Shown here: positions 21,981 to 30,214 of the stretch, piece by piece
How positions within the stretch are numbered: the first letter of the stretch is position 1
Layout: every line of letters begins with the position of its first letter
DNA from: Flavobacteriales bacterium 33_180_T64
GTDB taxonomy: Bacteria > Bacteroidota > Bacteroidia > Flavobacteriales > Flavobacteriaceae
Assembly (NCBI GenBank): GCA_002162685.1
Contig: MAAQ01000017.1
Location: 62,001 to 126,000, forward strand
Direction: 5' to 3'
Length of the DNA: 64,000 nucleotides
Notes under the pieces: generated by a model
The model's database searches: none
Told to the model about the DNA's origin: nothing
The model's input: only the letters and a program-made list of their open reading frames with translations
Program-made: the position numbers and the translations under genes

Positions 21981-22278
21981 CCTTTTTCTTTAGTTTAAGA
22001 CTGTCTTCATATTCAATAATAAAAATGTCTTCATTTTCTTTCTTCATATAATACTTCTCACGTGCAAGTTTTTCAATTCCATTGTCAGTACTAAGCTCTT
22101 TAATTGCTTTATTATCTTTTTCAATTTCATTATTATAATATGCTTTCTCATTTTCTAAATCATTGATATCGTCATTTAACTCTCTATGAATTATGAGCGA
22201 ATTAGAATCGATAAACAACATCCATACTGCAAAAACAATAAAGACAAGAACAAATATGTTTTTTAAGTATTTAAGCAT
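21973..22278 (-). CDS. Septum formation initiator family protein (FtsB/DivIC-like)
   Basis: 101 residues: one N-terminal transmembrane helix (about 5-24), then a periplasmic coiled coil (ELNDDINDLENEKAYYNNEI) and the conserved GIEKLAREKYYMKKENEDIF, the signature of FtsB/DivIC proteins that bridge FtsL and FtsQ in the divisome. The start shares one base with the udk stop. It leads straight into the mutase operon, an odd but common pairing in this family. Confidence 0.9.
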   Translation of the reverse strand: MLKYLKNIFVLVFIVFAVWMLFIDSNSLIIHRELNDDINDLENEKAYYNNEIEKDNKAIKELSTDNGIEKLAREKYYMKKENEDIFIIEYEDSLKLKKKDE

Positions 22279-22886
22279 TAACTTAATCTTTCGTTGATAA
22301 TAGTTTTAACGATATTCACAGCAACAGTATTGTATTTATTATTTGGTATGATAATATCTGCATACTCTTTCATTGGTTCAATAAACTGTTGATGCATGGG
22401 CTTAAGTGTTGTTTGATATCTAATTAACACTTCATTGATATCTCGACCACGTTCAGAAATATCACGTTTTAAACGTCTAATTAGACGTTCATCACTATCG
22501 GCATGAACAAATATTTTAATATCAAACATGTCTCTAAGTTTAAGTTTTGACAAAATAAGAATGCCTTCAACAATCATTACTTTTCTTGGTTGAGTAGTAA
22601 TTGTATCTCCTGTTCTATTATGTTCTACAAACGAATAGACAGGTTGCTCAATAGCATGTCCTTTTTTTAATTCAGACAGGTGTTTTCTTAATAATTTAAA
22701 ATCTATAGAACGTGGGTGATCAAAATTAATTTTTTTACGTTCATCAAAACTTAGCTTAGATGTGTCTTTGTAATAAGAGTCTTGAGAGATTACTCCAACT
22801 TCTCCTTCGGGTAACTCGTTAAGTATTTGGTTTACAACAGTTGTTTTTCCACAACCTGTTCCTCCAGCAATTCCAATAATTAGCAT
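22278..22886 (-). CDS. udk: Uridine kinase
   Basis: Udk phosphorylates uridine and cytidine in pyrimidine salvage. The 202-residue P-loop kinase has GIAGGTGCGKTTV with Walker A at about 8-16, SQDSYYKD, NFDHPRSIDF (nucleoside binding) and RLIRRLKRDISERGRD (lid region). It is first in the leftward run that ends with the mutase large subunit. Confidence 0.96.
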   Translation of the reverse strand: MLIIGIAGGTGCGKTTVVNQILNELPEGEVGVISQDSYYKDTSKLSFDERKKINFDHPRSIDFKLLRKHLSELKKGHAIEQPVYSFVEHNRTGDTITTQPRKVMIVEGILILSKLKLRDMFDIKIFVHADSDERLIRRLKRDISERGRDINEVLIRYQTTLKPMHQQFIEPMKEYADIIIPNNKYNTVAVNIVKTIINERLS

Positions 22887-22912
22887 ATATAAAGACTGAT
22901 TTTTTAGTTGAA

Positions 22913-22920
22913 CAAATTTA
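22913..22920 (-). promoter_or_regulatory. Promoter -7 box TAAATTTG for the udk operon
   Basis: On the minus strand TAAATTTG matches TAnnTTTG exactly, 26 bases upstream of the udk ATG. The upstream element is a TTT about 18 bases away rather than TTG. Confidence 0.55.
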
Positions 22921-23096
22921 ACAATTATGATAGAAAATAAAGGCTCAATTCTCGAAACTTCTTATTCTGTTATCAACTTCTTATTAGAAGGCCTTTAACT
23001 ACTCGTAATGTTTTTTATAGCATCTGCAATTTTATTATTAATTAAACCTTGTTTTGTTATTATAATTTATACCATTCTGAAGTATATTTGATAGCA

Positions 23097-24200
23097 TTAA
23101 TTTTTTATTAGTTTCACTATCCCAAAGTTTTCAATACCAACATAGATAAATCCATCTGGACCTTGATTAATTGAGCGCACTCTACCAAGCCCATCAAGTA
23201 AACGTTCTTCTTTTATGATTTTACCATCTTTAATGTAGCAATTATCTAAATACTGAAATTTTAAAGATCCTACTAATAAGTTCCCTTTCCATTCTTTATA
23301 GATCTCACTAGATATAAATTCCATTCCGCTAGGAGCAATAGATGGTGTCCAATAATGAAGCGGTTGTTCCATTCCGGGATGTGACGTTTTATCTGTGATT
23401 TTTGTGCCAATATAATTTATACCATAAGTAATAACTGGCCATCCGTAATTTTTTCCTGGCTTGATAATATTAATTTCATCGCCACCTTTCGGACCATGCT
23501 CATGTGTCCATATTTCTCTTGTTTCTGGATGAATTACCATGCCTTGTGGATTGCGGTGCCCATATGAATAAATAGCACTTTTGGCATTGTCTTGGTTTAT
23601 AAATGGGTTATCAGACGGTAATGAGCCATCATCATTTAATCTGTAAATTTTTCCGCCATCTCGAGTAATATCTTGAGGGTTTTCATCCCGATTACCACGT
23701 TCACCGATTGTAAAATAGAGATACCCATTATCATCGAAAACAATTCTTGATCCAAAATGCTGACCTTTAGTTGTATTTGGAGTTGCTTTATAGAGCAATT
23801 CTTTTTCGATTAAAGAATTACCTTTAAGTTTAGCTCTCATTATTGCAGTATGCCCACCTTTTTCTTTTCCTTCAGAAGACACATAGCTTATGTAAATCCA
23901 TCCATTTTTAGTGTAATTAGGATGTAATTTAATGTCAAGCAAACCGCCTTGTCCGCGATTATAAACTTTTGGAACATTTGTTATTTGTGTTTTTTTTCCA
24001 TTAGTAAAATGAATAATCTTACCTTCTTTTTCGTTAATTAGTATGGAGCCGTCTGGTAAAAATGTAAATCCCCAAGGGTTAATAAGCTCAGAAACAATAA
24101 TTTCATAAGAATGTGAATTATTCACGGGGTTTTTATCTTGAGCACATGCAAGCACACCTAAAGAACCAATTAATAAGACGTATTGTTTAACAAATGTCAT
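23097..24200 (-). CDS. PQQ-dependent sugar dehydrogenase family protein (glucose/sorbosone dehydrogenase type)
   Basis: 367 residues. An N-terminal signal with a possible lipobox (MTFVKQYVLLIGSLGVLACA, Cys19) sends it to the periplasm. The six-bladed propeller signatures include LVNPWGF-like SELINPWGFTFLPDG, GGLLDIKLHPNY, GERGNRDENPQ, YSYGHRNPQGMVIHPE and HEHGPKGGDEINI. This family oxidises aldose sugars with PQQ in its characterised members; whether this one binds PQQ is not shown by the sequence. It is divergent from the tRNA pair. Confidence 0.93.
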   Translation of the reverse strand: MTFVKQYVLLIGSLGVLACAQDKNPVNNSHSYEIIVSELINPWGFTFLPDGSILINEKEGKIIHFTNGKKTQITNVPKVYNRGQGGLLDIKLHPNYTKNGWIYISYVSSEGKEKGGHTAIMRAKLKGNSLIEKELLYKATPNTTKGQHFGSRIVFDDNGYLYFTIGERGNRDENPQDITRDGGKIYRLNDDGSLPSDNPFINQDNAKSAIYSYGHRNPQGMVIHPETREIWTHEHGPKGGDEINIIKPGKNYGWPVITYGINYIGTKITDKTSHPGMEQPLHYWTPSIAPSGMEFISSEIYKEWKGNLLVGSLKFQYLDNCYIKDGKIIKEERLLDGLGRVRSINQGPDGFIYVGIENFGIVKLIKN

Positions 24201-24260
24201 TGAAATAAAATTTATGATTAAATTTAGTAAAAAAAGTTATTAATTTTTAAAGAAAAGATA

Positions 24261-24268
24261 TATATTTG
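24261..24268 (+). promoter_or_regulatory. Promoter -7 box TATATTTG for the tRNA-Pro/tRNA-Arg operon
   Basis: TATATTTG fits TAnnTTTG exactly and lies 58 bases before tRNA-Pro; a TTA stands about 19-20 bases upstream in place of TTG. A leader of about 50 bases would be removed during tRNA processing. Confidence 0.55.
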
Positions 24269-24326
24269 CACCTCGAAATTTTAGAGAAATCATATAATTT
24301 AATCTTTCTAAAATTGATAACCATTT

Positions 24327-24401
24327 CGGGGTGTAGCGTAGCCCGGTTATCGCGCCACGTTTGGGACGTGGAGGCCGCAGGTTCGAATCCTGCCACCCCG
24401 A
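24327..24401 (+). tRNA. tRNA-Pro (anticodon TGG)
   Basis: The acceptor stem CGGGGTG pairs with CACCCCG; the anticodon stem CCACG/CGTGG encloses TTTGGGA with anticodon TGG; the T arm is GCAGG-TTCGAAT-CCTGC. The 3' CCA is not encoded. Confidence 0.97.
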
Positions 24402-24409
24402 CTTTTTGA

Positions 24410-24483
24410 GGGCTCTTAGCTCAGCTGGATAGAGCACCTCCCTTCTAAGGAGGCGGTCGAAGGTTCGAATCCTTCAGGGCTCA
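24410..24483 (+). tRNA. tRNA-Arg (anticodon TCT)
   Basis: The acceptor GGGCTCT pairs with AGGGCTC using two G-U pairs; the D arm is GCTC...GAGC; the anticodon stem CCTCC/GGAGG encloses CTTCTAA with anticodon TCT; the T arm is GAAGG-TTCGAAT-CCTTC. CCA is not encoded. A second copy of the 3' part lies at 25890-25936, which makes this gene a probable integration site. Confidence 0.96.
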
Positions 24484-24488
24484 CTTAA
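24442..24488 (+). repeat. Direct repeat, left copy (inside tRNA-Arg 3' end)
   Basis: The 47 bases from the anticodon loop through the tRNA end to six bases past the gene recur at 25890-25936 with one mismatch (GGAGG versus GGAGA). Such repeats mark the ends of elements integrated into tRNA 3' ends (attL/attR). The distance between copies is 1,448 bases. Confidence 0.85.
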
Positions 24489-24516
24489 GCCGTGTCAGTA
24501 ATGACGCGGCTTTTTA
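24487..24516 (+). terminator. Rho-independent terminator after tRNA-Arg
   Basis: AAGCCGTGTC and GACGCGGCTT form a 10-bp stem (one G-T pair) around AGTAAT, followed by TTT. It ends the tRNA operon. Confidence 0.85.
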
Positions 24517-25138
24517 GTGTTTTTACACTAAAATTCTTATCTTCAATTTTTACAAAAATTCGTATAAATTTCACAAGAAATTCATGTATTTTGGCATAAA
24601 ATGTGTGTAAAAGTTATAATAATCTATACATTGACATTTTTAAGAGGTTAAATTCAAGTTATACCTTATAAACACTATAGGTTTTTTTTTCTGTTTTTAA
24701 GCTGATCCTCTAAAGTTAGGAGGATGTCAAAGGTGTCTTAGCCTTTATATTTACTTAATCTTGGTGTTTTTAGTGCTAGTAATACTGTGCTTTGAGCAGT
24801 TATTAGTATTGCGGAACCTCGTAAGGGGTGTAATTTTAATTAGCTTAGTTTTACTTCAAAATACACGTAGATATACGTATTGTATTGTAAGAATTTTAAT
24901 AATACATTTAACACCAACTATTACATACTTATAATGGACTTTATCATGTCGTTTTTGGGATGATAGGAAACTAAAGGTGTTAGTATAAATAGTTAGCAAA
25001 TCGCACAACACAAAAAAGTTATCGATCTCTGAGAGGATTTCCTATAGAGACATAATTTCGAAACCTTTGTTTTATGTTAAAAAATTCGTGTTATAACACA
25101 ATAAAAATTGAAATAATTACTAACTAAAAATATAGAAA
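24517..25138. other. Long intergenic region before the carbonic anhydrase gene
   Basis: About 620 bases without a credible gene. It holds regulatory repeat copy A (24813-24967), a short ATCCTC/GAGGAT inverted repeat near 24703-24725, and an AT-rich leader of about 170 bases before the carbonic anhydrase ATG. Confidence 0.6.
24813..24967 (+). repeat. Regulatory repeat, copy A (upstream of carbonic anhydrase)
   Basis: One of three co-oriented ~150-bp copies. Aligned by eye with B and C, it shares AGTTTTA-x-TCAAAATA, the imperfect palindrome ACGTAGATATACGT (24866-24879), ATTG(T/A)TTGTA, ACATTTA, and a distal block beginning TCATGTC (24944) and containing GGGATGATAGG. With C it also shares CGTAAGG and GTAATTTTAAT at the left end. 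It lies 171 bases before the start codon. Confidence 0.8.
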
Positions 25139-25780
25139 ATGGAAAATTGCCCTAACGCAAGAACACAAGAAGAACAAAAAGCTATTACGCCGAAAGATGC
25201 AGTACAAATGTTGAAAGACGGTAACAAGCGCTTTGTTGATGATAAAATGACAAAATATTGCTACGGAAAAATGGCCAAGCAATCTGCAAAGAATGGGCAG
25301 TTCCCTTTTGCTGCGGTTTTGTGCTGCGTAGATTCAAGAATTCCAGTAGAGCAAGTATTCGATCAAGCGATTGGCGATATGTTTGTTGCTCGTGTGGCAG
25401 GCAACTTCATTAATTCAGACATTGTTGGTAGCCTTGAGTTTGCTGTTGTATCTGGTGTGAAATCAATATTGATTTTAGGACATACAGCCTGTGGTGCTAT
25501 AAAGGGTGCATGTGATGGCGCAACAGGTCTTCCTGCTCTCGATAGTATGTTGAGTAATATTCAGCCAGCTGTAAAGTCAGCGATTACCTCAACTGGTAGA
25601 GTTGCTACGTCTACAGACTCGAAGTTTGTTCAAACTGTTGCCGACGTGAATGTAAAAATGGCAATGGCAGATCTTAGAAGCAAAAGCGCGCTGATTAATA
25701 CCGCTATTCAAAATGATACATTAAAACTTGTTGGAGGGATGTATGATCTTAGTAGTCGGGTAGCGAAAATAGACGATTAA
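25139..25780 (+). CDS. Beta-class carbonic anhydrase
   Basis: Interconverts CO2 and bicarbonate with one zinc per active site. The 213-residue protein has the class signature C63-x-D65-x-R67 (CCVDSRIP) and H115-x-x-C118 (HTACGA), so the three zinc ligands and the catalytic Asp/Arg dyad are present. No signal peptide is seen, so it is probably cytoplasmic. The gene lies between tRNA-Arg and a copy of that tRNA's 3' end, and is preceded by regulatory repeat A. It looks slightly less AT-rich than the flanking DNA, compatible with transfer. No second gene is in the unit. Confidence 0.95.
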   Translation: MENCPNARTQEEQKAITPKDAVQMLKDGNKRFVDDKMTKYCYGKMAKQSAKNGQFPFAAVLCCVDSRIPVEQVFDQAIGDMFVARVAGNFINSDIVGSLEFAVVSGVKSILILGHTACGAIKGACDGATGLPALDSMLSNIQPAVKSAITSTGRVATSTDSKFVQTVADVNVKMAMADLRSKSALINTAIQNDTLKLVGGMYDLSSRVAKIDD

Positions 25781-25889
25781 TCCCAGTTCAGAAATATTAA
25801 CTAAATTTTAAAGAATGTGTGTAAATTAAAATTAGCATTTTTAAGTTATTGATTACTAATAATTTATATTTTTTAAAAAAAAACTCTCT

Positions 25890-25936
25890 CTTCTAAGGAG
25901 ACGGTCGAAGGTTCGAATCCTTCAGGGCTCACTTAA
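25890..25936 (+). repeat. Direct repeat, right copy: tRNA-Arg 3' fragment
   Basis: 46 of 47 bases match the 3' part of tRNA-Arg at 24442-24488. The acceptor 5' half, D arm and most of the anticodon 5' stem are missing, so it cannot fold as a tRNA. Interpreted as the displaced attachment-site half of an integrated element. Confidence 0.85.
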
Positions 25937-25965
25937 AGCCTCACCTTTATTGGTGAGGCTTTTGT
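25935..25965 (+). terminator. Strong rho-independent terminator after the tRNA fragment
   Basis: AAAGCCTCACC and GGTGAGGCTTT form an 11-bp perfect stem around TTTATT, followed by T residues. It may be the original terminator of tRNA-Arg, displaced by insertion; it could now also end the carbonic anhydrase transcript. Confidence 0.85.
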
Positions 25966-26005
25966 TTTTATGCTTGATTTTTTGTTTTCTTTTTTATAAG
26001 CTTTT

Positions 26006-26158
26006 GGAACTCCAAAAGGTGTACCATTTTGGTGCACATAGTTTTATTTCAAAATATACGTAGTTCTACGTATTGATTTGTACATATTTAAATACTACAT
26101 TTATTACTGATTACTAGATACTTATAACGTGCATTGTCATGTCGTTTTGGGATGATGG
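26006..26158 (+). repeat. Regulatory repeat, copy B (upstream of the 237-residue lipoprotein)
   Basis: Co-oriented with copies A and C. Shared blocks: CATAGTTTTA, TCAAAATATACGTAG, CTACGTATTGATTTGTA, ACTACATT, ACTTATAA, and TCATGTCGTTTTGGGATGAT from 26137. It lies about 200 bases before the start codon. Confidence 0.82.
26056..26073 (+). promoter_or_regulatory. Perfect 18-bp palindrome, probable operator (copy B)
   Basis: ATACGTAGTTCTACGTAT is a perfect inverted repeat with a two-base centre. The inner TACGTAG-TT-CTACGTA has the 7-2-7 geometry used by NarL/FixJ (LuxR-type HTH) regulators; the regulator assignment is inference. C carries it with one change and A in a weaker form. Confidence 0.65.
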
Positions 26159-26359
26159 ATGCTATTTATATAAAGTAGTTATACCTCATTAAATCCAAGA
26201 CGGTCAAAAATGGACTGACCATCCAACGTCGGAATTTGAACAGCGACACCAAAAAAGAAAGTATAAAATGATATTATGAGTATCAACTAAAAATCTATTG
26301 ATTATTTCAATATAATTATTAACTTTAGAAAGCAACTAGCTTCTATAAAATCTAAAATT

Positions 26360-27073
26360 ATGAATATTATAAAATTTTTAAGAAAACCTTACTTAGCTAT
26401 CTTATTTTCTTACTTAATTCTATTTGTGTCTTGTTCTCAATATGACTCGGTAGAAATTAATGAACAAAATTTCGATTATACAGCGTTTAATGAATTTAAA
26501 TCTCAAGGGTATATAATTGATATAAACTTGATAAAGAATAATAAAGTATCATTGATAGAAAAGAAAAAAGCTATATTAAATCAAATTAATACAGAATTAA
26601 ATACTGATTTAAGTTTTCCGGATAAAGCATTTGAATTAGCTAATTCTGATGTAGAAGAAATATTCGAAATTAGTATGAAAGAGGGTTGGATGACTCAACA
26701 AGATGTGGATTTAACTAATGAGTTTATTTTAAATATTAAAAATGATGGTATCGATATTGCAATTTCAAAATATGAAGCTACAATTTTAGAGTTATCTTTA
26801 TCTAGTGCTAAGTTTGAAGAGAAAAATATTTTTCTGAATATAATGAAAAGTTTAAATTATGCTAATCCTGATTTATTTAAAACAGAACTATTAAATGAAT
26901 CTTTAGTAGCAAATAAAGAGCCTTGGTATAAATGTGCTGCTGCTGGAGTAGCCTTAGTTGCTGCAACTTTAAGTTTAGCATCCTGTGTTACTGTAGCTGC
27001 TTGTGGTTTAGCATTAGTTTTAGTTTATGCGGCATCCAATTCAGTTGCTGCAATGTGTGGTGGTGATGAATAA
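26360..27073 (+). CDS. Lipoprotein with cysteine-bearing hydrophobic C-terminal tail, unknown function
   Basis: 237 residues. The signal segment has a lipobox (LFVSCSQ, Cys about residue 25). The middle, about 30-185, is charged and helical with no recognised domain. The last 49 residues change character completely: a Gly/Ala/Val-rich hydrophobic stretch beginning WYKCAAAGVALV with four cysteines at about 192, 209, 215 and 233, ending MCGGDE. That tail resembles in composition the hydrophobic cysteine-containing peptides of some bacteriocins (halocin C8-like), but no homology is shown. A two-helix membrane protein gene follows 19 bases downstream. Preceded by regulatory repeat B. Confidence 0.8.
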   Translation: MNIIKFLRKPYLAILFSYLILFVSCSQYDSVEINEQNFDYTAFNEFKSQGYIIDINLIKNNKVSLIEKKKAILNQINTELNTDLSFPDKAFELANSDVEEIFEISMKEGWMTQQDVDLTNEFILNIKNDGIDIAISKYEATILELSLSSAKFEEKNIFLNIMKSLNYANPDLFKTELLNESLVANKEPWYKCAAAGVALVAATLSLASCVTVAACGLALVLVYAASNSVAAMCGGDE

Positions 27074-27092
27074 TCTTTAAATAATTAATAAT

Positions 27093-27311
27093 ATGTGGAA
27101 ACCAGGAAAAAAAACCTTATTCGTATTAATGATTCTAATGGCTATTTTTGGTGGTCTAACATCGTATTGGATAGATTGGACCGTTTTTGAGACAAATAAA
27201 GGTGTCTTAAGAGAAATACAATTACCAATAATATTTTTAGTGTTAAGTTTTTATTTTATGATACCTTATCTTAAAAAGATAAAAGAAGAAAAAAAGAATA
27301 ACGAAGCATAA
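27093..27311 (+). CDS. Small two-helix membrane protein, partner of the preceding lipoprotein gene
   Basis: 72 residues; transmembrane helices at about 8-27 and 44-60, with a positively charged C-terminus (KKIKEEKKNNEA). It lies 19 bases downstream of the 237-residue lipoprotein gene and shares its terminator, so the two form a unit. Size and topology would suit an immunity or accessory protein, but this is speculation from context. Confidence 0.72.
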   Translation: MWKPGKKTLFVLMILMAIFGGLTSYWIDWTVFETNKGVLREIQLPIIFLVLSFYFMIPYLKKIKEEKKNNEA

Positions 27312-27323
27312 CACAGTATATAG

Positions 27324-27376
27324 AAAATAGCAGTTAAAAGCTTAACTTAATGTTTAGTTCTTTTCTGCTATTTTTG
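27324..27376 (+). terminator. Terminator of the lipoprotein/membrane-protein unit
   Basis: AAAATAGCAG and CTGCTATTTT make a 10-bp stem, enclosing a second small hairpin (GTTAA-AAGC-TTAAC), and a T run follows. It lies just after the 72-residue gene. Confidence 0.8.
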
Positions 27377-27535
27377 TTTTTAAACCGAAAACTAGTACAT
27401 ACAACTCTGCTACTATTCTTGTACTAGGCCGCTTTTCCTATATTTTAAAAAGTGTGTGTGAAAATCTAGCAAATCTAAAAAACCGATTACTAGTCATCTT
27501 ATCTTTTCTATAGAGAAGCTTTTTTATGGTGTAGT

Positions 27536-27687
27536 GAAAACCCGTAAGGATCGTAATTTTAATCGCCATAGTTTTAGATCAAAATATATGTAGTTCTACG
27601 TATTGATTTGTAGGAAATTTACACTACATTCACCAAACGATTAAATAGTTATAATATCCTATATCATGTCATTTTTAGGATGCTATG
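27536..27687 (+). repeat. Regulatory repeat, copy C (upstream of the 109-residue exported protein)
   Basis: Third co-oriented copy. Shares CGTAAGG and CGTAATTTTAAT with A, CATAGTTTTA and CTACGTATTGATTTGTAG with B, and the distal TCATGTCATTTTTAGGATG block with both. Here the repeat ends only about 49 bases before the start codon, which suggests that the promoter lies within or just past the distal block. Confidence 0.82.
27586..27603 (+). promoter_or_regulatory. 18-bp palindrome, probable operator (copy C)
   Basis: ATATGTAGTTCTACGTAT differs from the perfect copy B palindrome by one base (ATATG for ATACG) and has the same spacing from the flanking conserved blocks. Confidence 0.6.
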
Positions 27688-27735
27688 AATGTTTAAGTAA
27701 GTAGTGTACAACATAAAAACAAAAAATCTATTATT

Positions 27736-28065
27736 ATGAAAAAAAGACAATTGTTAATGACCATGATTTTCTCAATCTTATTTGGGGCCTATGGATTTTC
27801 TCAAAATCCTTTAGTGATTAATCTCCCTTTTGCTGATTTGAAAACTGAAGAATCTATAGTGAAGGAGTATGAAGAAAATTTGAAAACAATTAAAATAAAT
27901 TATTCATCAATAAAAAAGGAGAAGAAAAAAGCAGTTTTTGTAGGTCCGAAAACAGAAACTTGTTTTTTGGGATTTGTAACAGTTAGCTATACTGTAGTCT
28001 GGGATGATGGCACTACGTCTGTTGAAGGAGGAACATATTATTGCGCATGTTCTTGTCCTGACTAA
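27736..28065 (+). CDS. Small exported protein with cysteine-rich C-terminus
   Basis: 109 residues. A clear type I signal peptide (MKKRQLLMTMIFSILFGAYG, cleavage after GFSQ at about 23) is followed by a lysine/glutamate-rich middle and a C-terminal segment with four cysteines: one in ETCFLGF and three in YYCACSCPD at the very end. No known domain. Organisation (signal, charged spacer, cysteine tail) echoes the 237-residue protein upstream, although the sequences do not align. Own repeat copy upstream and terminator downstream. Confidence 0.78.
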   Translation: MKKRQLLMTMIFSILFGAYGFSQNPLVINLPFADLKTEESIVKEYEENLKTIKINYSSIKKEKKKAVFVGPKTETCFLGFVTVSYTVVWDDGTTSVEGGTYYCACSCPD

Positions 28066-28094
28066 AACTCAATTAAAATTTTAATGATTGCATC

Positions 28095-28134
28095 AAAGCA
28101 TGGGCTTATTTTTTAAATATGTTCATGCTTTTTT
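28095..28134 (+). terminator. Terminator of the 109-residue protein gene
   Basis: AAAGCATG and CATGCTTT form an 8-bp stem around a 21-base AT-rich loop, followed by TTT. The long loop makes it weaker than the others here. Confidence 0.6.
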
Positions 28135-28542
28135 AATAACATTACATAGCAATGTGTATAGTCGATTACTAGCTCTGTGTACTTAGGAAATCCTACAGGT
28201 CTTCTTTTGATTCGTTTTCATTTGTTAGCTTAATTTCTAACCATATACAAACACGTTCCCACAATATTTTAAAAATATGCCTAAACTATATGTAAAAGTT
28301 TGCAAATCAAATACAATACGATTTAAGCTTTAAATTGTCTTAGTTATTGTTATTAATGAGTTGATTATGTGTTGTTTGAGGTGAAAACCATACTTTTGTG
28401 GAGTAGATTTTTTTTTAGCCACCTATTTAATGAATAAGTGTAATTACTTGTAATTAAGAGTGTTATATTACTGTTCATGTGCTTTTTATAATGCAAAATT
28501 GTATTTCATCGAATATATAATGCGTTTTATCGATATAATAAT

Positions 28543-28572
28543 TTGTTTTATTTAAATTTAAGTCTACATTTG
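28543..28572 (+). promoter_or_regulatory. Consensus Bacteroidota promoter for the 144-residue lipoprotein gene
   Basis: TTG at 28543-28545, 19 bases, then TACATTTG at 28565-28572 is an exact match to TTG-N19-TAnnTTTG. The -7 element ends 29 bases before the ATG. It is among the best promoter matches in the window. Confidence 0.75.
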
Positions 28573-28601
28573 TCCTATAATTTTCATTAAAACCCAAATC
28601 G

Positions 28602-29036
28602 ATGAAAAACCTACTTACTAATGCAATTGCTTGCGCAATTGTTATGACGACATGTTATAGTTGTTCTGTTGAATCCTTTCAAGGCGAACAATCTCAAAAC
28701 ATTACTATTTCTGATACTACTATAGCGTTAGACGCCTTAGATCCTTGTGATTCGCAAGATCCTCAAGCCAGAATAACAAATAGTGGTACTGTTGCAATAA
28801 CATTAGAAATTGCTACTATTGATGGCGTAATATTACATACAGTACATAATTTAAATCCTGGTAATGCTTCTAGTTTTTTAACTTTTGCTGCTGATGATAT
28901 TATTTTTAATATTTCAAAAAATACAACAGGCATTCGTGATGAAAAAGTGGTGTTCATGATGAATCAATGTATGAGTTTTGATATGGAAGTAGGAATTGAT
29001 AATTATCTAATTCCTTCTGTGCCAGAGAACCTTTAA
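28602..29036 (+). CDS. Putative lipoprotein, unknown function
   Basis: 144 residues. The signal segment has cysteines at about 11, 18 and 21; the most likely lipobox is YSC at 21. The mature part is strand-rich and acidic (ITLEIATIDGVILHTVHNL) and contains two further cysteines (DPCDSQD, NQCMSF), suggesting a small beta-sandwich. Its 3' end overlaps the convergent methyltransferase gene by four bases. It has its own strong promoter and is not preceded by the ~150-bp repeat. Confidence 0.75.
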   Translation: MKNLLTNAIACAIVMTTCYSCSVESFQGEQSQNITISDTTIALDALDPCDSQDPQARITNSGTVAITLEIATIDGVILHTVHNLNPGNASSFLTFAADDIIFNISKNTTGIRDEKVVFMMNQCMSFDMEVGIDNYLIPSVPENL

Positions 29037-30214
29037 TAGGTTTTTGAACAAACTAGTACAATTTTCTCGTTAGAATAATTTGTAGTAAAGAACAGGTAGA
29101 TGTTACCACCATCTTTAATGTGATGTTTCTTTCTAATGTTTTGTACTGTTTCTGGAAAATTTCTTGTAGTGATGTTAGCTTTTGATATCCCTAGTTTTTT
29201 TAAAGCTTTTTTATTGTAGCCTATCAAGGTGTCAACTTTAAAAGTTCGACCTGGAAAATCCACTAATTCATTACTCGTAAATAAATGTGAGTGCTGATGT
29301 AGTTTTGAAAGCTTTAAATTTTCAGATAAGCTATTAAATCCGCCAGATTTCAATAGTGCTGAATTAGGCTCATAAATATATTTTAAAGGCGTCTCATAGG
29401 TTACATGAGCTTTAGATTCTCTATTTAATTTAAAAGAGAATAGATCGTTTTTATCCTCAATAATATTAACGGTTTTAATCGTAATCTCACTATTAAAACC
29501 TTTTTCTAATATCCATATAAGTTCTTTAACTTCATTTTTAATAGCTATAATATGGATGTCCCTTACGTGTTTTAATTCATTAATTCCAATTGATAAATCT
29601 AAAAGCGGAGAGGTTTTAATGGCAATATGATCACTATAATTAAAAAGTGTATCTAAGTGTTTAGGCACATTAGGTAAGCAGTCTTTTAAGAAAAATACTT
29701 TTCCTTTACTATCATGTCTTCGAGAGGGATCGATATAAATCCAATCGTATTTTTTGTCTTTGGAAATTAAATAATCAATTCCATTAAAAGCTACTGTATG
29801 ACTATTCGTTACTCCTAATTGTTTATTGTTATGGTTTACAATAGATGATAATTCTTCGTTTATTTCACAATGGGTAACCGTTTTAAAAATTCGTGAAAAA
29901 TAATAACAATCAACTCCAAAGCCTCCTGTTATGTCTATGATTGATACACCTGATAAAAGTTGAGATTTGTATTCTGCGGCAGTTTCCGAAGAGGTCTGTT
30001 CGATGTTGAGTTTATTTGGAAAGTAAATATTTTCAGTATTAAACCACGTCGATAGTTTCTTTTCGCACTTTGCTTTAGCTTCTATTTGCTCTATAATTTC
30101 AAGCGTATTCACGTTTTTGAAATTCGTGCCTTTTAAAAGTATCTTAGAGACATCAGTAGATAGATTTTTAATGATAAAATCTTGAATTTCAGTATTTAAA
30201 ATTTCAGTATTCAA
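29033..30214 (-). CDS. Class I SAM-dependent methyltransferase with THUMP-like C-terminus
   Basis: 393 residues. An N-terminal helical region is followed by a Rossmann methyltransferase core with VSIIDITGGFGVDCYYFSR (SAM loop) and YDWIYIDPSRRHDSKGK (motif IV, DPSRR), then a THUMP-like C-terminal domain (VDTLIGYNKKALKKLGISKA). Such proteins are thought to modify RNA; the target cannot be told. It follows the AI-2E-type transporter gene by six bases. Confidence 0.9.
   Translation of the reverse strand: MNTEILNTEIQDFIIKNLSTDVSKILLKGTNFKNVNTLEIIEQIEAKAKCEKKLSTWFNTENIYFPNKLNIEQTSSETAAEYKSQLLSGVSIIDITGGFGVDCYYFSRIFKTVTHCEINEELSSIVNHNNKQLGVTNSHTVAFNGIDYLISKDKKYDWIYIDPSRRHDSKGKVFFLKDCLPNVPKHLDTLFNYSDHIAIKTSPLLDLSIGINELKHVRDIHIIAIKNEVKELIWILEKGFNSEITIKTVNIIEDKNDLFSFKLNRESKAHVTYETPLKYIYEPNSALLKSGGFNSLSENLKLSKLHQHSHLFTSNELVDFPGRTFKVDTLIGYNKKALKKLGISKANITTRNFPETVQNIRKKHHIKDGGNIYLFFTTNYSNEKIVLVCSKTY

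Follow-up and report, generated by a model that had tools for sequence, protein, structure and literature searches.

A palindromic promoter module repeated on a tRNA-Arg island of a Flavobacteriales bacterium, and its probable response regulator

Three module copies at the locus

The stretch of DNA analysed here, hereafter the window, comprises 64,000 nucleotides (nt) of Flavobacteriales bacterium 33_180_T64 (contig MAAQ01000017.1, positions 62,001 to 126,000) and holds three co-oriented copies of a ~150-bp module, A, B and C, each carrying a palindrome upstream of a predicted promoter. A preliminary description of the window had placed each copy directly before a different and unrelated gene unit; alignment bore this out, with a mean column identity of 85% among the copies (76–80% pairwise by blastn, across 113–155 nt, E 4e-16 to 2e-26). 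The elements of the three modules are as follows (L, G and C numbers in the text are our labels for loci, genomes and contigs, G000 being the window's own genome).

24811..24972, + strand: module A, predicted promoter and leader before a carbonic anhydrase gene (alignment, blastn)
24864..24879, strand-neutral: palindrome of module A, 7-2-7, imperfect, CACGTAGATATACGTA
24903..24910, + strand: predicted -7 element of A, TACATTTA, 20 nt past TACGTATTG
26004..26163, + strand: module B, before a lipoprotein and a two-helix protein (alignment, blastn)
26057..26072, strand-neutral: palindrome of module B, 7-2-7, TACGTAGTTCTACGTA
26096..26103, + strand: predicted -7 element of B, TACATTTA, 20 nt past the palindromic box
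27534..27692, + strand: module C, before a Cys-tailed exported protein (alignment, blastn)
27587..27602, strand-neutral: palindrome of module C, 7-2-7, one mismatch, TATGTAGTTCTACGTA
27625..27632, + strand: predicted -7 element of C, TACATTCA, 19 nt past the box

The palindrome is perfect in module B, as first described, where ATACGTAGTTCTACGTAT (26056-26073) has 8-nt arms flanking TT, and imperfect in A and C. In 7-2-7 terms it consists of the heptamers TACGTAG and CTACGTA, and the general form TACGTAG-NN-CTACGTA, two heptamers two bases apart, is referred to below as the box. The module core AGTTTTANNTCAAAATAYAYGTA occurs three times in the window with at most 3 mismatches, against 0.04 occurrences expected from shuffles. 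Genome-wide, a shorter core recovers A, B and C at 0 mismatches together with two chance-like matches at 2 mismatches (one match for the control pattern), and blastn of module A against G000 returns the same three copies only. The count of copies called for in the preliminary description is accordingly three for the full module, whereas a scan with the box pattern alone finds 7 distinct sites in this genome. Among 145 other related genomes, blastn with module A found no full-length homologue, only pieces of 31–66 nt in 8 genomes, some of which fall within genes and not at a box. Within the window, positions 24581-24650 resemble the distal part of module C (76%, 42 nt) and also contain an inverted core fragment; this may be a fourth copy that has degenerated.

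The box lies behind a conserved response-regulator gene

Three of the short matches to module A (L008, L009 and L010) represent one orthologous locus, situated directly behind a gene for a response regulator with receiver and GerE domains. The window's genome encodes this protein at G000:C23:110641-111273 (Pfam Response_reg 1e-25, GerE 6e-15). It is 78% identical to the regulator of L010, its sequence relatives in the PDB include DesR, VraR and NarL, and the phospho-acceptor aspartate D54 is invariant in an alignment of 10 regulator sequences. At the G000 regulator locus (L018, 2136-2650) there are three boxes, each of which, by inspection, precedes a short unit with a terminator-like hairpin at its end.

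The linkage was evaluated in the best 80 of 555 named matches to the regulator (L153-L232), drawn from Psychroserpens, Winogradskyella, Gelidibacter, Formosa and other genera, counting boxes with at most one mismatch in TACGTAN4TACGTA from -25 to +1200 nt of the regulator stop. All 80 loci carry at least one such box (one in 1 locus, two in 53, three in 23 and four in 3), corresponding to 188 boxes within the 97.6 kb behind the regulator stops and none in the remaining 426 kb of these loci. The outer spacer bases are complementary in 178 of the 188 boxes, compared to 96 expected from independent draws, indicating a dyad of two heptamers two bases apart. Across genomes of the family, the exact box is present in 47 of 299 (0 of 299 for the reversed-pattern control), and a regulator-family match (E<=1e-40, scored among the best 10 candidates per genome) occurs in 43 of these 47 compared to 138 of 299 overall (Fisher 2e-12). 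Operators of 7-2-7 geometry are the rule for NarL/FixJ-type regulators, and the spacer complementarity and the linkage to a LuxR/NarL-type gene together support the assignment to this class that the preliminary description had offered as a guess. From these sequence comparisons we judge the palindrome to be the operator of a conserved LuxR/NarL-type response regulator, within a promoter module that is widely shared, with a probability of about 0.78. Variant palindromes, AGGTAAATATACCTATTG, stand at box positions in L007 and L009, suggesting that the operator may tolerate other heptamers.

A predicted promoter at constant distance from the box

Primary-sigma promoters of Bacteroidota are characterized by TTG at -33 and TAnnTTTG at -7. 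The TTG of TACGTATTG is the likely -33 element, and a logo of 155 non-redundant boxes revealed a -7 element at a fixed distance 3' of TACGTATTG. In the Psychroserpens set (40 regions hand-chosen from the box list, with the regulator-locus sites and a few others left out), 27 of the 53 sites away from the regulator locus have the -7 match at precisely +20, compared to 0–9 at each other offset from -5 to 59. Since the -7 pattern was partly learnt from the same sites, only the test in other genera is independent: there, 17 of 21 sites match at +20, with at most 6 at any other offset from 5 to 59. All three window copies fit at 6 of 6 positions, at offsets of 20, 20 and 19 for A, B and C. A -7 element exactly 20 nt after the box, in and beyond Psychroserpens, argues that the module contains a promoter, consistent with the earlier suggestion that one lies inside it. 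In addition, the box stands directly upstream of the likely -33 element and touches it, which is the position where an activator would stand; the box is therefore most likely an activator site. With the predicted transcript starting past the -7 element, the distal block of the module is placed in the 5' leader.

Each module would thus be a regulated promoter together with its 5' leader, and a phosphorylated dimer of the regulator, bound to the palindrome just upstream of -33/-7, probably activates transcription. On the island inserted behind a tRNA-Arg gene, the box would drive the three cargo units; the locus of the regulator itself, elsewhere in the genome, has the same box three times, before units resembling small RNAs.

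Small-RNA-like units behind the regulator gene

Of the 188 boxes of the regulator loci, 131 have a terminator-like hairpin no more than 170 nt downstream, compared to 12 of 188 after shuffling, and some of the remaining boxes precede a small-protein gene (129 of the 188 box units were inspected). The terminator stem carries double changes in 4 of 12 pairs among 11 chosen sequences. From these features the terminator-ended units look like small RNAs (sRNAs). Their first bases past the promoter are often GCTATTAAT, followed by AGGGGA-like motifs and then the terminator. A gene for a single-helix membrane protein of ~35–45 amino acids (aa), recognized by inspection, also occurs after boxes, including at loci with few or no sRNA-like units (L009, L010, L018, L144, L145 and L152).

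The box across genomes and its cargo

The preliminary description had proposed a private regulon. The regulon part gains support from the same box behind the LuxR/NarL-type regulator gene; the private part does not stand, as the box pattern is found in 23 of 23 Psychroserpens genomes (130 matches compared to 2 for the reversed pattern, in totals where palindromic sites may count on both strands). Of the 50 Psychroserpens-set sites outside the window, 37 could be given a cargo open reading frame of 70 aa or more (36 proteins), leaving 13 sites without one. Boxes often precede accessory genes, lipoproteins included. Pfam searches with 30 cargo proteins and PADLOC searches with 10 gave matches that include TIR, SIR2-like with TPR, and Septu PtuA/PtuB, as well as a metallo-beta-lactamase fold (a weak LmuA match), a ParA-like ATPase, haem peroxidase, cytidine deaminase, DUF4474, a SnoaL-like protein and a protein sorted by the type IX secretion system (T9SS); 17 of the 30 scanned proteins have no Pfam family at E<=0.001.

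A second module array occurs in L061 (G002:C1:3456000-3470000), with five boxes and five attC-like matches in 14 kb and with repeated leaders before lipoprotein-like and T9SS-sorted proteins. The early view of a duplicating expression module therefore holds locally, A, B and C being paralogous and the G002 array having repeated leaders of its own. Overall, the box appears to have been taken up by many acquired genes, probable phage-defence genes among them, and would show how newly arrived genes come under a host signal at once. An anonymous repeat thereby becomes a testable regulon: one regulator gene with one operator, a promoter at constant distance from it, a cluster of sRNA-like units, and acquired genes whose set varies. 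We found no description of the box, of the regulon or of its link to the docking sites discussed below in the open-licence PMC literature.

The tRNA-Arg island and its cassette-like features

The modules lie between a tRNA-Arg gene and a conserved lipoprotein gene, together with the following features.

24410..24484, + strand: tRNA-Arg(tct), left edge of the island
25139..25780, + strand: cargo A, beta carbonic anhydrase (Pfam Pro_CA 1.8e-35)
25886..25936, + strand: second, incomplete copy of the tRNA-Arg 3' end, situated between cargo A and module B (96% over 51 nt)
26360..27073, + strand: cargo B1, a lipoprotein as judged by inspecting the sequence; no Pfam match
27093..27311, + strand: cargo B2, a membrane protein with two helices, as judged by inspection; no Pfam match
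27302..27441, + strand: attC-like site overlapping the end of cargo B2, decayed (29.9 bits, E 7e-4)
27736..28065, + strand: cargo C, a small exported protein with a Cys tail, as judged by inspection; no Pfam match
28140..28264, + strand: attC-like site behind cargo C (59.8 bits, E 9e-10)
28602..29036, + strand: MKNLL lipoprotein gene, conserved, right edge of the island; follows tRNA-Arg in relatives

The carbonic anhydrase of unit A is 45% identical to the other copy of the same genome, on C23, whereas for the three proteins of units B and C the Pfam search gave nothing at E<=0.001. Among 22 search loci of relatives, of which six on the other strand were left unread for the gene, 10 showed the MKNLL gene behind tRNA-Arg. 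The gap between the two genes is shorter than 200 nt in G012, G013, G015 and G020, which represent short empty sites, and 4.1 kb in the window, where it holds all three modules and the partial tRNA-Arg 3' copy; other genomes hold other inserts behind tRNA-Arg. As judged from these loci, the island sits at a tRNA-Arg insertion hotspot. No integrase gene was found within the island, where the largest open reading frame in 24485-28601 encodes 237 aa and has no Pfam match. One of the other inserts, at L107 1585-2377 (G009), comprises two tandem GIY-YIG genes (the first with Pfam 1.3e-14), each with a 31-nt tRNA-Arg 3'-end copy behind it, and is possibly a small element that uses the tRNA end; nothing relevant was found in the literature on tRNA-borne GIY-YIG units.

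The two attC-like sites were identified with a covariance model, R2, built from 22 of 34 attC-like sequences after the ~200-nt class and irregular ones were dropped. Such sequences are clearest in two stretches of G005 (L272 and L273), where a phage-integrase-family recombinase gene is followed by co-oriented small genes separated by ~140–200-nt repeats and, by eye, the outer box behind a gene mirrors the one before it. R2 detects at least 54 sites in G000, at least 95 in G005, at least 44 in G002, at least 14 in G018 and at least 31 in G280. Integron-like cassette arrays with an IntI-like recombinase were noted at L272 and L273, at L277 and L279, and on G000 contigs C2, C10, C17 and C19. The recombinase genes beside arrays belong to the phage-integrase family and are IntI-like only: the integron-integrase model TIGR02249 matches in 9 of 9 genomes and in 14 of 14 control genomes, nowhere over its cut-off, and the best matches skip model positions ~180-240, so that the IntI-specific added domain was not found.

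The attC-like sites behind B and C suggest that at least part of the cargo arrived as integron-type cassettes, a pattern that is clearer in relatives. Because of these two matches, of L093 (in the same genome, a weaker box unit with 3 mismatches followed by an attC match) and of the analogy to the relatives' arrays, a cassette origin of the window cargo appears plausible. The main competitor is that A, B and C arose by local promoter duplication only, through duplication or gene conversion, the attC-like sequences being old debris unlinked to the arrival of the cargo. Several observations speak for it and against the cassette reading. Among the genomes searched, only A, B and C share homology across the full 150 bp, and the island holds the partial tRNA copy and neighbouring repeats. 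The R2 scan of the window found no attC-like match behind cargo A. The junction of unit B fits its own attC R'' at 8 of 11 positions, with p 0.15, and that of unit C has p 0.21 (per site, uncorrected), neither being significant; a common recombination junction (TAGT|T) ending the A/B/C homology, spotted by eye, was not supported (p 0.34 and 0.99). However, the only two significant attC matches in the 64-kb window are those after units B and C, the third R2 match being at chance level (E 0.16), and none at E<=1 occurs in 22 relatives' tRNA-gene loci (68 kb); L093 again joins a box unit to an attC match. The 40 regulator loci scanned out of the 80 (259 kb) likewise gave no attC-like match at E<=0.1. 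Local duplication alone is, on balance, a serious but doubtful explanation.

Putative promoter-bearing docking sites in relatives

Twelve box leaders in relatives have a common ~70-nt hairpin (model R1). In 8 of 9 R1-leader sites with an attC match, the predicted partner of the attC R'' box lies at leader position 43-47 (p <0.0005 to 0.30 per site, uncorrected); L251, which has the weakest attC match, fails this test. Behind attC, GTTARACGAA resumes in 6 of the 8 sites. In three of them (L077, L094 and L249) it is the exact reverse complement of the leader left arm, and in the other three (L065, L072 and L246) it deviates slightly. The chance figure of 2e-11 for the docking-site matches is illustrative and was obtained without L251, and the p of 3e-5 for the table of boxed sites (6/6 vs 5/44) is rough, as the table was filled by reading and two boxes before one gene counted as two sites. 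At 63 sites, leaders were compared blind with the DNA that follows for inverted matches; this was mostly empty, and became informative only once the attC signature was known.

An R1 scan recovered 29 sites in 5 of 8 genomes, with none in G000, G002 or G010. Sixteen were not known before, and 10 of these have a same-strand downstream attC. The box precedes 16 of the 29 sites, but R1 was trained on boxed sites, and among the new ones only 3 have it; in 7 of the 13 unboxed new sites TTGACTTTG stands upstream in place of the box. The -7 element, TAACTTCG or a variant, overlaps the docking-site left arm. L292 (G280:C2:51811) has a TTCGTTTAAC hairpin ending in TTAAACGAA and no cassette, and is apparently an unoccupied docking site. 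Judged by sequence, the R1 sites resemble ~60-nt docking sites that carry a promoter and accept one cassette each, and some of them also have the regulator's box.

These sites can be joined with the regulon into one tentative scheme, in which promoter-bearing docking sites scattered over flavobacterial chromosomes would take up single cassettes in an integron network under two-component control. The regulator and its sRNA cluster would switch a subset on together via the 7-2-7 box, set at a constant distance from the promoter of the site, and the island in the window would be a diverged, partly decayed case at tRNA-Arg. We place this scheme below even odds, and rated it slightly lower because only 3 of the 16 new docking sites have the box. 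Also counting against its extension to the window cargo, no R1 match was found in the window or in G000, and the window modules were for that reason not classed as docking sites. If the docking-site link is true, integron cassettes could be expressed singly around the genome, some under a two-component signal, and need not be confined to an array at the integrase side.

Alternatives to the operator assignment

The closest competitor of the operator assignment is that the box serves a different LuxR-type protein, or several paralogues, with the adjoining regulator merely a fellow target. G000 has 30 matches to the regulator, the next best being 40% identical, and that protein could bind the box instead. 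Four of the 47 box-positive genomes lack a regulator match among the best 10 candidates, and L007 (G022) has variant boxes that follow the neighbouring gene immediately, the regulator gene being missing from that position. These points weigh against assignment to this particular regulator, as does the exact box missing from 95 of the 138 regulator-positive genomes; for the promoter, the strict -7 criterion fails at +20 in 26 of the 53 Psychroserpens-set sites, most of which contributed to the logo from which the pattern was drawn. Nevertheless, the box lies directly behind this one gene in every regulator locus of the sample and co-occurs with it across genomes, and a regulator gene adjoining its own box is typical of autoregulated systems. 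A different LuxR-type protein is consequently unlikely, and the operator of the adjoining response regulator is retained as the preferred reading.

A structured RNA leader or riboswitch-like element, to which the palindrome would be incidental, is very improbable. The distal TCATGTC..GGATG block can fold as a leader hairpin, and some leaders in other genomes fold too. In contrast, module A as RNA folds no better than shuffles (z -0.79), only tRNA reaches the gathering score in an Rfam scan of window positions 22000-30000, and the box precedes unrelated leaders from a position upstream of the predicted promoter, outside the transcript; the folding and Rfam results ruled against this candidate. 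Co-oriented repeated copies before unrelated genes would also fit a transposon end, or a repeat like a miniature inverted-repeat transposable element, that happens to carry a promoter, but this is hardly credible, since the 25 longest inverted repeats listed include no conspicuous pair that all three copies share, and what is conserved across genomes is the box with a promoter at constant distance and not a repeat unit of set length.

Comparison with known systems

The proposed regulator and operator resemble NarL-, VraR- and DesR-type systems in the combination of receiver and GerE domains with a dyad of two heptamers two bases apart. They differ from the NarL system in the heptamer, which is TACGTAG here and not that of NarL, and from NarL-type systems in their targets, an sRNA-like cluster and many acquired genes. 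The gammaproteobacterial circuit GacA-RsmY/RsmZ provides a second parallel: as there, a LuxR-type response regulator would act through a palindromic box, which precedes several short units that resemble RNAs and end in terminators. Unlike that circuit, the units here adjoin the regulator gene. Small RNAs conserved in flavobacteria, Rfp18 of Flavobacterium psychrophilum and others, are described in PMC9723704, and the terms response regulator, LuxR and palindrome do not occur in its main text.

Integrons in Bacteroidota and cassette-borne promoters are already known (PMC8618304), and the former are also covered in PMC9668308; in the main text of a review of integron regulation (PMC8876359), the terms two-component and LuxR do not occur. 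Compared to the integron arrays with Pc, attI and attC outlined in PMC8618304, Psychroserpens has similar co-oriented small genes with ~140-nt attC-like repeats whose outer boxes are mirrored, in arrays adjoining an IntI-like tyrosine recombinase. Two differences set it apart from those arrays: the recombinase matches fall below the integron-integrase cut-off, and the putative promoter-bearing docking sites are scattered, away from the recombinases found, with some carrying the box.

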